Below, piece by piece: positions 25,434 through 29,846 of a stretch of 64,000 nucleotides of DNA. The notes beneath the pieces were generated by a model, which was not told the DNA's origin, made no database searches, and saw nothing but the letters and a program-made list of their open reading frames with translations. Position numbers and translations under genes: made by a program. Positions within the stretch are counted from its first letter, which is position 1; each line of letters opens with the position of its first letter. Source of the DNA: Devosia neptuniae (GTDB taxonomy: Bacteria; Pseudomonadota; Alphaproteobacteria; Rhizobiales; Devosiaceae); the NCBI RefSeq assembly GCF_025452235.1, contig NZ_CP104965.1, forward strand, positions 2,290,501-2,354,500. Reading direction: 5' to 3'.

Positions 25434-25631
25434 CCCTGTTGTCCCTTTGATTGCTTTTGACGGCGACCCCGCGACCGCCTTCCCGCCGGCCGCGATGAGA
25501 GAGCAGTTAAACAGGTCTTCGTGACGGGCGAAAGTGGACCTTTTGGTCAATTTTCGGCGGCGTTGCCGAGGGTTCCAATCAGAACGCATTGCGATAAGCT
25601 CCGCCGCGTTTTGATTTGCGGGGAATTGGCT

Positions 25632-26279
<648 letters not shown>

Positions 26280-26283
26280 TGCT

Positions 26284-26922
26284 CTACCAACGCAGCAGGA
26301 AGCGTCCGAGTAGCGCGCCCAGGCCGCCGACCAGCACAATGCCCAGCGTGTAGAACAGCGCCACGAACATCATGCCGTTTTCGGCGCAGGCGAAGGAATA
26401 GACCCAGGCGCCGGTGCCGCCGGCCATGATACCGGCGGCAAAGCCAGCCAAGGTCGGATTGGCCGGCGCCAGGCGGCGCAGCACGAAGATGGCGGCTAAC
26501 AGCACCGGCAGTGACAGCACCACAATGCGCCATGGGCAGACCAGGGAGGTGCCGCCCACAATCAGCGGCATCATCTCGCCGGGTTCGGCGCGGGCGAGCT
26601 GGAATACCGCGCCGACGAGCAACAGGCCCAGTAGAGCCAGCGCCGCCAGCCAGGGCCAGCGGGTGCGGCCATCGGGCCGGGCCAATACCAGCGTGGCGCA
26701 GAAGCCGAACACGGCGAGTGCCAGCGTATAGGTGAACTTGCTCCAGAACATCATCGTGCCCGGCGCGGTGTCCATGTCCGGGCGCATGCCCAGCCACATG
26801 ACCATGGCGAGGATGGCGATGATGCCGCTCAGCAGGACGGCGCCGAGCAGCAGACGCTGTATGGCCGTGCGGCGCACGGGCTTGAGGTCGGCGGCGAGGC
26901 GGGCGATCAGCTCGTCGGTCAT
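26284..26922 (-). CDS. nrsF: NrsF-type anti-sigma factor (DUF1109)
   Basis: 212 residues with six predicted transmembrane helices and a short cytoplasmic N-terminus (MTDELIARLAADLKPVRR). Cysteines at 75, 129 and 179; the latter two correspond in position to the cysteine pair that I recall as needed for sensing in Caulobacter NrsF. It should hold SigF inactive until an oxidant or metal modifies it. The start overlaps the sigF stop by four bases (ATGA), so the pair is co-translated. Confidence 0.9.
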   Translation of the reverse strand: MTDELIARLAADLKPVRRTAIQRLLLGAVLLSGIIAILAMVMWLGMRPDMDTAPGTMMFWSKFTYTLALAVFGFCATLVLARPDGRTRWPWLAALALLGLLLVGAVFQLARAEPGEMMPLIVGGTSLVCPWRIVVLSLPVLLAAIFVLRRLAPANPTLAGFAAGIMAGGTGAWVYSFACAENGMMFVALFYTLGIVLVGGLGALLGRFLLRW

Positions 26923-27470
26923 TTCGGACCTCCCGCAAAGCGCATGGCGAGGGCCTTGAGCCCGCGATGGATGGACACCTTGGCGGCCGTTTCGGTCATG
27001 CCGTGGGCGGCGGCGGCCTCGGCGACGGAGGCGCCATCGACCTTGGTGCGATAAATGAGATCGCTGGTGCGGGCGGGGACGGTTTCCAGCACCACGTTGA
27101 GATCGCGGCGGGCGAGGGCGTCGGCGCTGTCGTCATGGGCGATAATCGGGGCGTCGTCCTCGAGCGGCACGGTCAGACGGATCGACTGGCGGCGCACATG
27201 ATCGACGAATTTGTGGTGCGCCACCGCATGCAGCCATGCCGTGAAGGGCCGGTTGCGATCATAGGTCAGGCGGCGGGCGTGAATGGCCAGCAGGGTCTCC
27301 TGCACGAGATCCTCCGCGTGCGCGGCAAAGGCGGGGGTGAGCCGCCGGGTGAAATAGGGGCGCAGATGACGGCCGAGTTCGGCCAGCAGCGACCGATAGG
27401 CCGCAGCATCGCCGTCAAGCGAAGCGAGCATCAGGCTGCGCAATCGCATCTCGGTGGGATCAGTCTGCAT
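26919..27470 (-). CDS. sigF: ECF sigma factor SigF
   Basis: 183 residues from ATG 27470; the reading frame continues upstream but over the predicted promoter. Sigma-70 region 2 (AHAEDLVQETLLAIHARR and PFTAWLHAVAHHKFVDHVRR) and region 4 (VAEAAAAHGMTETAAKVSIH) are clear. Paired with the DUF1109 anti-sigma. It likely directs its own promoter and that of the divergent gene for the methionine-rich protein. Confidence 0.92.
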   Translation of the reverse strand: MQTDPTEMRLRSLMLASLDGDAAAYRSLLAELGRHLRPYFTRRLTPAFAAHAEDLVQETLLAIHARRLTYDRNRPFTAWLHAVAHHKFVDHVRRQSIRLTVPLEDDAPIIAHDDSADALARRDLNVVLETVPARTSDLIYRTKVDGASVAEAAAAHGMTETAAKVSIHRGLKALAMRFAGGPK

Positions 27471-27480
27471 TGCCCATTCA

Positions 27481-27506
27481 TTCGCTCCCTTGGGCCGTAT
27501 TGTTAC
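27481..27506 (-). promoter_or_regulatory. Candidate SigF-dependent promoter of sigF-nrsF
   Basis: On the reverse strand GTAACA, 16 bases, CGAA. This is the pattern reported for SigF promoters in Caulobacter (GTAACC-N16-CGAA). CGAA ends 10 bases before the sigF ATG, so the leader would be very short or absent. Confidence 0.65.
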
Positions 27507-27559
27507 ATCGGCAACGGCACTAAGGAATGCAGAATTCGGAATCACGACGGAGTGACCGC

Positions 27560-27585
27560 GTAACGTCGGGACCAGACATGGCGAA
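27560..27585 (+). promoter_or_regulatory. Candidate SigF-dependent promoter of the Met-rich protein operon
   Basis: GTAACG, 16 bases, CGAA. Same spacing and -10 as the sigF promoter on the other strand. It lies about 52 bases upstream of the GTG chosen as start of the methionine-rich protein. Confidence 0.7.
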
Positions 27586-27637
27586 TGGCAGGCATGAACC
27601 GCGCGATGGGGCGTGGTCAAAATTCTGGAGACAGCTC

Positions 27638-27979
27638 GTGACACACACTCTGCGTACACTTTCCCTCGCGGCTATTGCCGCCTTCACCTTTGCCGCAGTG
27701 CCAAGCTTTGCCGAGGACGCCATGGCTCCGGCGGGCGGCGCTATGGCTCCGGCAGGTGCTATGGGCGCCATGGCTCCGGCAGATGCCATGGGTCCGATGA
27801 CGCCGATCAGCGACGCAGACTATAAGCTGTGTAACGAACAGGCCGCGACCATGACCTTCCCCGAAGCCATGCAGGCGGCGATGGCGGCCTGTCACGGATT
27901 GCACCAGGGCATGGACGTGATGGGCGCCATGAAGTCGATGGGCATGGAAACCGGTGCCATGGCGCCAGCTGCGCAATAA
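27638..27979 (+). CDS. mrpX: Secreted methionine-rich protein, MrpX-like
   Basis: 113 residues from GTG 27638, with GGAG nine bases upstream; earlier in-frame ATGs (27527, 27578) overlap the promoter. A Sec signal peptide of about 25 residues ends at VPSFA. The mature 88 residues contain 15 Met (17%), many in AMAPAG-type repeats, plus two Cys (KLCNEQ and AACHGLH). In Azospira a similar protein, MrpX, is oxidised by hypochlorite and reduced again by YedY1/YedZ1 under SigF control. Here it lies directly upstream of a YedZ-like/YedY-like pair and divergent from sigF. The two Cys and His also allow metal binding. Confidence 0.78.
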   Translation: MTHTLRTLSLAAIAAFTFAAVPSFAEDAMAPAGGAMAPAGAMGAMAPADAMGPMTPISDADYKLCNEQAATMTFPEAMQAAMAACHGLHQGMDVMGAMKSMGMETGAMAPAAQ

Positions 27980-28003
27980 CGTTTAAGTGATGTTCGACGC
28001 TTT

Positions 28004-28038
28004 CCCCGCGCGGTACCGTTGCTACGGACTGCGCGGGG
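28004..28038 (+). promoter_or_regulatory. Hairpin between the Met-rich protein gene and the cytochrome b gene
   Basis: CCCCGCGC pairs with GCGCGGGG, with an inner CCGT/ACGG stem. No T-run. It probably protects the 3' end of the small message so the Met-rich protein is made in excess over the enzyme subunits (inference). Confidence 0.6.
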
Positions 28039-28059
28039 CAGCTGCGCGGAGGGGTATGG

Positions 28060-28911
28060 ATGAGCGAGCAGACAATTTCGGATCGGGCGGGCAAAGGCCC
28101 ACTGATCTATCGCCAATCGATCTGGACGCGGGTGACCCATTGGCTATGGGCCATCTGCCTGTTCGTCCTGCTGCTGTCGGGATTGCAGATCTTCAATGCG
28201 CATCCCGCGCTGTATATCGGGCAGCAATCGGGCTTTGAGTTCGACAATGCGGTGCTCGAGATCGGCGCGGTTAACACCGATGCTGGGGCGCGTGGGCAGA
28301 CGACTTTGTTCGGGCAGACATTCGACACGACGGGCGTGCTGGGCATGAGCGGGTCGGCGGAGCAGCCGCAATTCACGGCGTTCCCCGGTGCTGTGACCAT
28401 TCCCTCCTATCGCGATCTGGCGACGGGGCGGGTGGTGCATTTCTTTTTTGGCTGGGTGTTCGTTTTCACCATGTTCGTCTGGTTTCTGGCCAGCTTCATC
28501 AATGGGCATATTCGCCGCGATATCGTGCCGGTGGGTGACGATCTCAAAGGGGTGCCCAAGGATGTGGCTGATCATGCGCGGCTGCGGTTTCACCATGGCC
28601 GCAGCTATGGGCCGCTGCAGAAGCTGAGCTATTTCGGGGTGTTCTTCGTTCTCTTCCCGTTGATCGTTTTGACGGGGCTGACCATGTCGCCGGGCATGAA
28701 TTCCATTGCGCCCTTCCTGCTCGATATTTTTGGCGGGCGGCAGACGGCGCGGACGATCCATTTCGTGGTCATGGTGCTGCTGGTGGGGTTCTTCATCATC
28801 CATATCGCCATGGTGCTGGCGGCCGGACCACTCAATGAGCTGCGCTCGATGATTACCGGTTGGTATCGCGCCAGCCCCGGCACGCCGGCCAGCGGAGGAG
28901 ACAAGCCATGA
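28060..28911 (+). CDS. Cytochrome b/b6 (b561-type) membrane subunit, YedZ1-like
   Basis: 283 residues, preceded by GGAGGGG. The N-terminus has RVTHWLWAICLFVLLLSGLQ, the first heme-ligand helix of the cytochrome b561 family; further helices have His in GRVVHFFFGW, RTIHFVVM and FFIIHIAMVL. A periplasmic loop of about 90 residues separates helix 1 and helix 2. It would pass quinol electrons to the periplasmic Mo-enzyme encoded next, which overlaps it by four bases. Confidence 0.9.
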   Translation: MSEQTISDRAGKGPLIYRQSIWTRVTHWLWAICLFVLLLSGLQIFNAHPALYIGQQSGFEFDNAVLEIGAVNTDAGARGQTTLFGQTFDTTGVLGMSGSAEQPQFTAFPGAVTIPSYRDLATGRVVHFFFGWVFVFTMFVWFLASFINGHIRRDIVPVGDDLKGVPKDVADHARLRFHHGRSYGPLQKLSYFGVFFVLFPLIVLTGLTMSPGMNSIAPFLLDIFGGRQTARTIHFVVMVLLVGFFIIHIAMVLAAGPLNELRSMITGWYRASPGTPASGGDKP

Positions 28912-29699
28912 GCGGGTTCAAGCTCAATCGCCGCAAGTTTCTGGGCGCCTCGGCTGCGGCTGGGTCGGGGTTGATCCTGTCGGGGTGTGACCAGTTCGAC
29001 TTTTTGGGGCAGCGGGATAATCAGGTAAGGGCGGTGCTCGAACAGGCCAATGTGCTGACCTATCAGGTGCAGCGGCGGCTGATCGGGGCGCAGACGCTGG
29101 CGCGGGAATATTCGCCCAGCGAAATCCGCCAGGGCCAGCGGCCCAATGGTTCGACCAATCCGAGCACGGCGGAATATTCCGCGCTGCGGGCGGCGGATTT
29201 TGCCAATTACAAGCTGACCATCAAGGGCATGGTGGAGCAGGAAGTCAGCTTCTCGCTGGCCGAATTGCGCAATATGCCGGCGCGCAGCCAGATCACGCGG
29301 CATGATTGCGTGGAGGGCTGGAGTTGTATCGCCAAGTGGACCGGTACGCGGCTGGGGGCGGTGCTGGACATGGCGCGGGTGAAGCCGGAGGCGCGGTTCT
29401 GCGTCTATCACTGCTACGACAATATCCAGACGTCGCTGGCTGGCGACATTCTCTATTATGAGAGTTCGGACCTGATCGACGCGTACCATCCGCAGACTAT
29501 TTTGGCCTATGGGCTGAATGACCAGACCCTGCCGGTGGCCAATGGCGCGCCGATCCGGGTGCGGATCGAGCGGGCGCTGGGCTATAAGCAGCCTAAATAT
29601 GTGCACACGATCGAGCTGGTGGATGACCTGTCGCCGTTCGGGCAGGGCAAGGGCGGGTATTGGCCGGATAATGGGTATGATTGGTATGGCGGGATTTGA
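28908..29699 (+). CDS. Molybdopterin-dependent oxidoreductase, YedY1/MsrP-like
   Basis: 263 residues of the sulfite-oxidase-fold Mo family. It starts with a Tat signal (LNRRKFLGASAAAGSGL) that ends in a lipobox-like LSGC (Cys27), so it may be a lipoprotein. The molybdenum Cys ligand is most likely Cys134 in RHDCVEGWSC. Family members include MsrP, which reduces methionine sulfoxide in periplasmic proteins. Translationally coupled to the cytochrome b gene (ATGA). Context with SigF and a Met-rich secreted protein supports a methionine-sulfoxide reductase role; sulfite oxidation cannot be excluded. Confidence 0.88.
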   Translation: MSGFKLNRRKFLGASAAAGSGLILSGCDQFDFLGQRDNQVRAVLEQANVLTYQVQRRLIGAQTLAREYSPSEIRQGQRPNGSTNPSTAEYSALRAADFANYKLTIKGMVEQEVSFSLAELRNMPARSQITRHDCVEGWSCIAKWTGTRLGAVLDMARVKPEARFCVYHCYDNIQTSLAGDILYYESSDLIDAYHPQTILAYGLNDQTLPVANGAPIRVRIERALGYKQPKYVHTIELVDDLSPFGQGKGGYWPDNGYDWYGGI

Positions 29700-29742: not shown

Positions 29743-29846
29743 CGGTGTCATTCCGGCGCAGGCCGGAATCCATGCTGAAGGCTATCCCGGCGCTGGTGCG
29801 GATCGCCACGGACATGGATTCCGGCCTGCGCCGGAATGACACCGCA
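29743..29846. repeat. Palindromic repeat family C, inverted pair
   Basis: Left arm GTGTCATTCCGGCGCAGGCC..., right arm its reverse complement ending GGAATGACACCGC. It occupies the first part of the 539-base gap between the Mo-enzyme and the helicase. Confidence 0.85.

Follow-up and report, generated by a model that had tools for sequence, protein, structure and literature searches.

A SigF/NrsF-linked locus of the methionine-cycling kind in Devosia neptuniae, with an optional methionine-rich protein and a predicted link to remote MsrB genes

In Brucella, the bcrXQP genes are induced by hypochlorous acid (HOCl) and aid survival of it (PMC8315932). In Bradyrhizobium, the EcfF-OsrA pair answers to H2O2 and controls three methionine sulfoxide reductase genes as well as a DsbD/thioredoxin-like pair (PMC3420878), and SigF of Caulobacter answers to chromate and cadmium (PMC3511200). 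Sinorhizobium RpoE7, which has Caulobacter-type targets, is described as answering to none of H2O2, Cd and chromate (PMC6180224). We analyzed a stretch of 64,000 nucleotides from Devosia neptuniae (contig NZ_CP104965.1, positions 2,290,501 to 2,354,500; hereafter the window), part of a genome of two contigs and 4.7 Mb, in which sigF and nrsF face away from the genes for a secreted methionine-rich (Met-rich) protein, a membrane cytochrome b and a molybdopterin oxidoreductase (Mo enzyme). The locus is of the already known MrpX/BcrXQP methionine-cycling kind, having both the gene set and, on both sides, sites of the type recognized by group 16 extracytoplasmic function (ECF) sigma factors, with N16/17 spacers. 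Judging from sequence, we put the probability that the system is a SigF/NrsF-controlled periplasmic methionine-sulfoxide defence at about 0.8. Its kinship with the methionine cycle is strengthened by the finding that SigF covaries with SigF-type sites in front of an unlinked gene for MsrB. The features of the locus are as follows.

26284..26922, minus strand: nrsF, membrane anti-sigma factor (PF06532/DUF1109, E 6.6e-69)
26919..27470, minus strand: sigF, ECF sigma factor, overlapping nrsF (Sigma70_r2 and r4_2)
27481..27506, minus strand: SigF-type site GTAAC-N17-CGAA toward sigF-nrsF (motif match; autoregulation predicted)
27560..27585, plus strand: SigF-type site GTAAC-N17-CGAA toward the Met-rich/cytochrome/Mo operon (motif match)
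27638..27979, plus strand: mrpX-like gene with GTG start, signal peptide, Met-rich arms and C-x19-C (C65, C85)
28060..28911, plus strand: b561-type membrane cytochrome b (PF01292, E 1.9e-20)
28908..29699, plus strand: MsrP/YedY-like molybdopterin oxidoreductase with Tat signal and lipobox-like site (PF00174, E 1.7e-30)
25521..26279, plus strand: thuA-like gene, the left boundary, outside the system

An earlier note on this DNA had described sigF-nrsF as divergent from the Met-rich, cytochrome and Mo genes, and the last two as coupled through an ATGA overlap; both descriptions hold, with their coordinates. The genes it assigned to a unit at 27470-29699 are indeed there, but that range omits sigF-nrsF (26284-27470), which is part of the unit. 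Its proposal of an MrpX-type methionine cycle agrees, as a matter of kinship, with the fact that the gene set and the divergent SigF-type promoters are the same as in Brucella bcrS-abcS/bcrXQP. Exact GTAAC-N17-CGAA sites number eight genome-wide, and two of them stand in the sigF/mrpX intergenic region. Their spacing equals that of the Caulobacter SigF motif GTAACC-N16-CGAA (PMC3511200), and table 1 of PMC8315932 gives a pair of Brucella sites, facing both directions, with the same GTAAC-N17-CGAA spacing. A long inverted repeat, seen by eye at about 29745-29843 just 3' of the Mo gene, is possibly a terminator or a repeat element.

We sought the same arrangement among relatives; close kin are found in Devosia (the Mo protein of Devosia sp. 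LC5, locus L100, is 97% identical to that of the window). NrsF was matched in 66 of 121 genomes of the family, and of the 75 places matched beyond the window's own genome, 60 were fetched. At 50 of these 60 loci sigF and the cytochrome gene were both present; of the remaining ten, nine lacked the cytochrome but had a sigma factor, and L090 had no match to sigF. In the resulting 51 sigF-cytochrome loci, window included, the motif with an N16 or N17 spacer pointed toward the operon in 50 and toward sigF in 48, and the spacer was 17 in 94 of the 98 sites. We also fetched 20 loci without a local sigF, namely those of all 15 same-genus genomes lacking an NrsF match and of G096, G089, G006, G051 and G062, of which G096 has NrsF elsewhere in its genome. 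None of the 20 had a sigF match, and neither the motif nor a Met-rich open reading frame (ORF) stood within 700 bp upstream of the cytochrome gene. Instead, thuA lay immediately upstream of the cytochrome gene in 18 of them (it was further off in L186 and unmatched in L199), which indicates that the sigF-nrsF-(mrpX) block, placed between thuA and the cytochrome gene, behaves as one unit. On the tree, its distribution needs a minimum of 12 changes. The Mo enzyme had 594 relatives, and of the 80 best named loci among them, many from Mesorhizobium and Rhizobiaceae, 10 had a sigF match nearby; the window's SigF served as tblastn query, a search that distant sigma factors could escape.

The sigF and nrsF genes themselves look mosaic: L099 has a SigF 91% but an NrsF only 47% identical to those of the window, and L092 a Mo protein at 95% but a SigF at 75%. 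NrsF seems to split into two identity classes. Six other Devosiaceae loci (L071, L077, L079, L084, L087 and L091) have SigF-NrsF of a second type, opposite which lies the gene of a small secreted protein with Cys in place of the Met-rich operon; that of L091 is a DUF2282 (PF10048) protein. The cassette of Candidatus Devosia symbiotica (L113) seems decayed, with partial, lower-identity matches to SigF, NrsF and the cytochrome, and at L068 the match to the Mo gene is spread over two reading frames, so that the gene looks broken or mis-assembled.

In the window's own genome, an exact site stands upstream of an unlinked gene for MsrB (PF01641), beginning 175 bp ahead of its start; the N-terminus of this MsrB carries a twin Arg as read by eye. 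Using the best-matching orthologue of this exported-type MsrB, we found the site upstream in 29 of 31 genomes with the local sigF (the window's own and 28 of 30 sampled from the 50 other sigF-cytochrome genomes), compared with 1 of 19 genomes without it. The lone SigF-less genome with the site, G115, has another NrsF. On the 49 genomes in the tree, G115 being left out for want of a tree row, the split was 29/2 against 0/18 (Fisher p 1.6e-11), and in relatedness-aware pairs 5.3 of 6 agreed on average while none opposed. Five MsrB rows marked 'cyto' are no control for the choice of paralogue because they are second paralogues from SigF-less genomes. At L200:1944-3927, the exported-type msrB is directly preceded by genes for an ECF sigma factor, an RskA-type anti-sigma factor and a fasciclin protein, which might exert a second control on it.

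For the exported-type MsrA, with a signal-like N-terminus by eye, an exact site was present in 9 of 15 SigF+ genomes and in 0 of 15 SigF-less ones (p 7e-4), and five further SigF+ genomes had a CGTA variant; this relaxation was made after the data had been seen, although the consensus published for Bradyrhizobium reads CG(t,a) (PMC3420878). An unprompted scan for GTAACC-N16-CGAA in 12 SigF+ genomes returned 77 sites, of which 64 were read (66 readings, two sites being read twice); the other 13 were local sigF-operon or MsrB sites already known. The proteins that recurred downstream were MsrB (9 genomes), MsrA (PF01625; 9 genomes), SigF (4), a DsbD_TM carrier (PF02683; 3) and DUF1223 (2), together with two unnamed clusters of two genomes each and two clusters that were alternative reading frames of Msr genes. 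Homologues of the DsbD-type gene at 66% or more occurred in 6 of 15 SigF+ and 0 of 15 SigF-less genomes; three of the six had an exact site, two a CGTA site and one none. The window's own genome has only a relative at about 36%, without a site. The covariation of SigF with SigF-type sites at MsrB, and at MsrA, points to a predicted regulon that joins Mo-based and thiol-based repair of methionine sulfoxide.

Several observations weigh against a SigF-controlled methionine-sulfoxide defence. The motif is not enriched genome-wide: the reversed control was commoner in the window's own genome (268 against 44, spacers N15-18) and over 12 genomes (123 against 77), so the argument depends on where the sites lie and on their covariation with SigF. 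The relatedness-aware test of the MsrB site was only borderline (median p 0.0625), and the site was missing in 2 of the 30 other SigF+ genomes. In the window's own genome the MsrA orthologue has neither an exact nor a CGTA site, and five (L201-L205) of the six exact N17 sites outside the operon head no obviously fitting gene, the sixth being the MsrB site. Some sites in the scan precede second paralogues: MsrB in two genomes (G099, L294; G070, L311) and MsrA in L269, L270, L291 and L296. In Caulobacter, SigF left the msrA homologues unchanged according to the available text of PMC3511200, and the BcrS sites in table 1 of PMC8315932 include none at an msr gene, whereas the exported-type MsrB of the window's genome has one. 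Finally, the structure model of the Mo enzyme (pLDDT 46) was too poor to be used. The lack of genome-wide enrichment and the sites at second Msr paralogues slightly lowered our confidence in the defence, which the probability given above takes in.

The Met-rich protein agrees with its earlier description: 15 of its 88 mature residues are Met (the signal being cut, by eye, after SFA), and it has both the two Cys and repeats of the AMAPAG type. The window contains 355 stop-free stretches of 85 residues or more, and no other 88-residue piece of them held more than 9 Met; the binomial probability of such a content is 5e-9 if 2.5% Met is assumed. The earlier note had also suggested a synteny comparison for DUF1109, a sigma factor and a Met-rich ORF; this placed the Met-rich ORF at the same position in 37 of the 50 relatives' loci, which argues that it is a real gene. 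The ORF was missing in the other 13 (13 of 51 with the window counted). A profile of the Met-rich family gave no match anywhere in these 13 genomes and matched 6 of 6 positive controls, the window's own genome among them. On a quick tree of the cytochrome and Mo proteins, its presence among the SigF+ rows needs at least five changes. Together, the 13 absences, the profile nulls and the tree indicate that the Met-rich protein was gained or lost repeatedly while the cytochrome and Mo enzyme stayed. The MsrB site was kept in all eight Met-rich-less genomes tested (L211, L213, L214, L227, L228 and L231-L233). By these comparisons the Met-rich protein, a presumed sink, is accessory and dispensable, and the repair genes persist without it; a Mo-enzyme profile found matches in 116 of the family's 121 genomes, in some only weak ones that came from other PF00174 proteins.

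The two Cys of this protein had been thought unusual and a possible mark of a distinct metal-binding subtype, and the Brucella tritici protein with 5 of its 5 matches, all lacking the pair, hinted at a Devosia peculiarity. Rhizobium, Agrobacterium, Microvirga and Mesorhizobium MXKDX proteins also showed the C-x19-C pair, so that the peculiarity was rejected and the distinct subtype finds no support. The pair was present in 37 of 38 syntenic proteins (the exception is L044) and in 222 of 230 homologues among the matches listed, Rhizobium and Mesorhizobium MXKDX proteins included; one search contributed 120 of 120 (the best 120 of 227 matches) and another 102 of 110 further listed matches (259 in total), against a rate of 2% in shuffled sequences. 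The share is biased upward because both large searches used two-Cys queries and their listings ended at the best 120 of 227 and of 259 matches. No report of the pair in the Met-rich family was found in the literature searched, the coverage of which was incomplete, so that this is weak evidence of absence. The syntenic proteins are acidic (mean pI 4.1 over 38 sequences, 4.2 in the window), with 15% Met on average and a commonest Met-Met spacing of 5 (148 intervals). AlphaFold2 modelled an ordered hairpin (helices 59-70 and 75-89, pLDDT about 90), so that the C-x19-C element would sit between disordered Met-rich arms of low confidence. No Pfam family matched the Met-rich-type proteins tried. The pentapeptide MXKDX repeat model TIGR02953 (cut-off 41 bits) misses the window copy yet accepts two of its syntenic relatives, L080 at 58.6 and L053 at 43.4 bits, besides the Rhizobium, Microvirga and Brucella tritici proteins, so that the window protein looks like a diverged orthologue. 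It is conceivable, if doubtful, that the hairpin is a redox-active or docking element tying the quinol/Mo branch to the thiol branch (DsbD-type, MsrA, MsrB), in which case the protein would be no plain sponge: it would be oxidised on both Met and Cys and regenerated by the two branches, all under a single sigma factor.

Met-rich periplasmic proteins can bind Cu(I), and this one has two Cys and contains His, with a C-H-x-x-H core in many family members. It might thus be a periplasmic copper/silver buffer, the Mo/cytochrome pair repairing metal-driven oxidation and a metal acting as inducer. Some SigF-NrsF loci of Devosiaceae face DUF2282-type genes, which we take to be copper-linked bufferins, and the response of Caulobacter SigF to chromate and cadmium (PMC3511200) points the same way. 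We nevertheless hold a metal buffer to be unlikely: the genes that recur 3' of SigF-type sites encode MsrB, MsrA and the DsbD-type carrier and not metal pumps, and the first His of the core is replaced by N or Q in several aligned rows. A bufferin/MNIO link was ruled out for the window's own genome, where the MNIO/bufferin enzyme PF05114 has no match.

Among solved structures, the Mo enzyme matched chain 1xdq best, at 71 bits; the deposit bears the name 'Bacterial Sulfite Oxidase', and we take it to be E. coli YedY/MsrP. Cys134 of the Mo enzyme aligns with the conserved Cys of that chain, and a sulfite:cytochrome c oxidoreductase scored 44 bits. The MsrP equivalog NF003767 was the best of the six NCBIfam families listed, at 84.3 bits and thus below its 207-bit cut-off, and the SorA, SoxC and SorT profiles matched more weakly. 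Sulfite oxidase was therefore rejected as an identity for the Mo enzyme. The residues G26-C27 are invariant in 14 aligned sequences; a lipobox-like site occurs in 78 of 79 readable named loci and a twin Arg likewise in 78 of 79, the sole miss being the decayed L113 (L177, where the contig end cuts the gene, was dropped). Since a twin Arg is combined with an invariant G-C lipobox-like site, the enzyme is predicted to be a Tat lipoprotein. The genome has no second PF00174 match, in a search that did not cover methionine sulfoxide reductases of the DMSO-reductase type. The cytochrome belongs to PF01292, and the genome holds no match to the MsrQ-type domain PF01794 (Ferric_reduct). Its His 27, 127, 234 and 248 are among the residues invariant in 12 aligned sequences and would suit two b hemes; the protein is probably the carrier of electrons from quinol to the Mo enzyme.

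Four of the 120 plasmid records with an NrsF match were read. Those of Agrobacterium larrymoorei, Rhizobium sp. N324 and Microvirga ossetica have a sigma-NrsF pair divergent from an MXKDX protein, a cytochrome b and a Mo protein, and in Microvirga msrA-msrB follow directly downstream in the same cluster. On pAMI4 of Paracoccus aminophilus, the cytochrome-Mo pair behind a Met-rich protein is replaced by two genes with the annotation msrP-msrQ, and this swap suggests that the two pairs share one job. In this locus (L367:1560-5136) the Met-rich protein is 158 residues long, has two Cys that by eye are separated by 44 residues, and stands beside msrP-msrQ, facing sigma-DUF1109. A sulfite-oxidising or other sulfur-handling respiratory unit, with the Met-rich protein incidental, is very improbable: PF00174 does include sulfite oxidases, SorA/SoxC/SorT profiles do match, and the cytochrome-Mo pair is widespread in the family without a local sigF, but the best scores go to MsrP and 1xdq, the predicted SigF regulon contains methionine sulfoxide reductases, and it is annotated msrP-msrQ that fill the same slot in Paracoccus.

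In the methionine-sulfoxide defence that we favor, NrsF would sense a periplasmic oxidant through Cys179, loop methionines or both, and free SigF. The window's NrsF has Cys at positions 75, 129 and 179, and in Bradyrhizobium OsrA, C129 is required to bind the sigma factor and C179 to respond to H2O2 (PMC3420878). With PF06532 and these two Cys it has the marks of an NrsF, and it scores 155.6 bits on the NCBIfam equivalog NF042994, below the 300-bit cut-off. SigF would transcribe its own operon, the mrpX-cytochrome-Mo operon and the unlinked gene for the exported MsrB. The secreted Met-rich protein may serve as a sacrificial oxidant sink, as its named relatives suggest. The b561-type cytochrome would pass quinol electrons to the lipid-anchored MsrP-like enzyme, which would reduce methionine sulfoxides back, MsrB doing so by a thiol route. 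Repair of envelope proteins would be the conserved core of the system, and the often absent Met-rich protein an accessory.

Two ECF16 regulons that were described separately, one with a Met sink and a Mo reductase and the other with MsrA/MsrB and thiol carriers, would in this way merge into one predicted envelope-repair regulon. No regulon combining a Met sink with a Mo pair and with exported MsrA/MsrB was found in the literature searched, again with incomplete coverage that makes this weak evidence of absence. The kind of system itself is known; what is new here and well supported by comparison of genomes is the divergent ECF16-type sites toward both operons, the covariation of MsrB and MsrA sites with SigF, the optional sink with persisting repair genes, the recurring C-x19-C hairpin of the Met-rich family and the predicted Tat lipoprotein, whereas the function is proposed by analogy with named relatives. 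Since these harmless soil bacteria include Devosia strains with and without the sink, its contribution can be tested directly.

Among the described systems, Brucella bcrS-abcS/bcrXQP has, like the window, an ECF16 sigma factor and a DUF1109 anti-sigma factor divergent from a Met-rich protein, a b-type cytochrome and a Mo reductase (PMC8315932). The Mo protein of Brucella tritici (L122) is 61% identical to that of the window and likewise has a twin Arg and a lipobox, whereas its Met-rich protein is Lys-rich (pI 9.4) and without Cys, unlike the acidic C-x19-C protein described here. Bradyrhizobium japonicum EcfF-OsrA shares the ECF16/DUF1109 pair, a similar promoter and the anti-sigma Cys129 and Cys179; its targets named in the available text of PMC3420878 include no Met-rich protein or cytochrome-Mo pair, several being 'hypothetical'. 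E. coli MsrPQ, as generally known, shares the Mo enzyme domain, the conserved Cys and a membrane heme partner; in the window, that partner is b561-type PF01292 and not PF01794, and the Mo enzyme is shorter, has a lipobox-like site and is ECF-linked. Azospira suillum sigF-nrsF/mrpX-yedZ1-yedY1, which we liken to the window by gene set and not by sequence, has the same genes and a proposed methionine cycle, and is linked to perchlorate-reduction islands (PMC4623255, PMC5748585), whereas the Devosia set is a cassette beside thuA.

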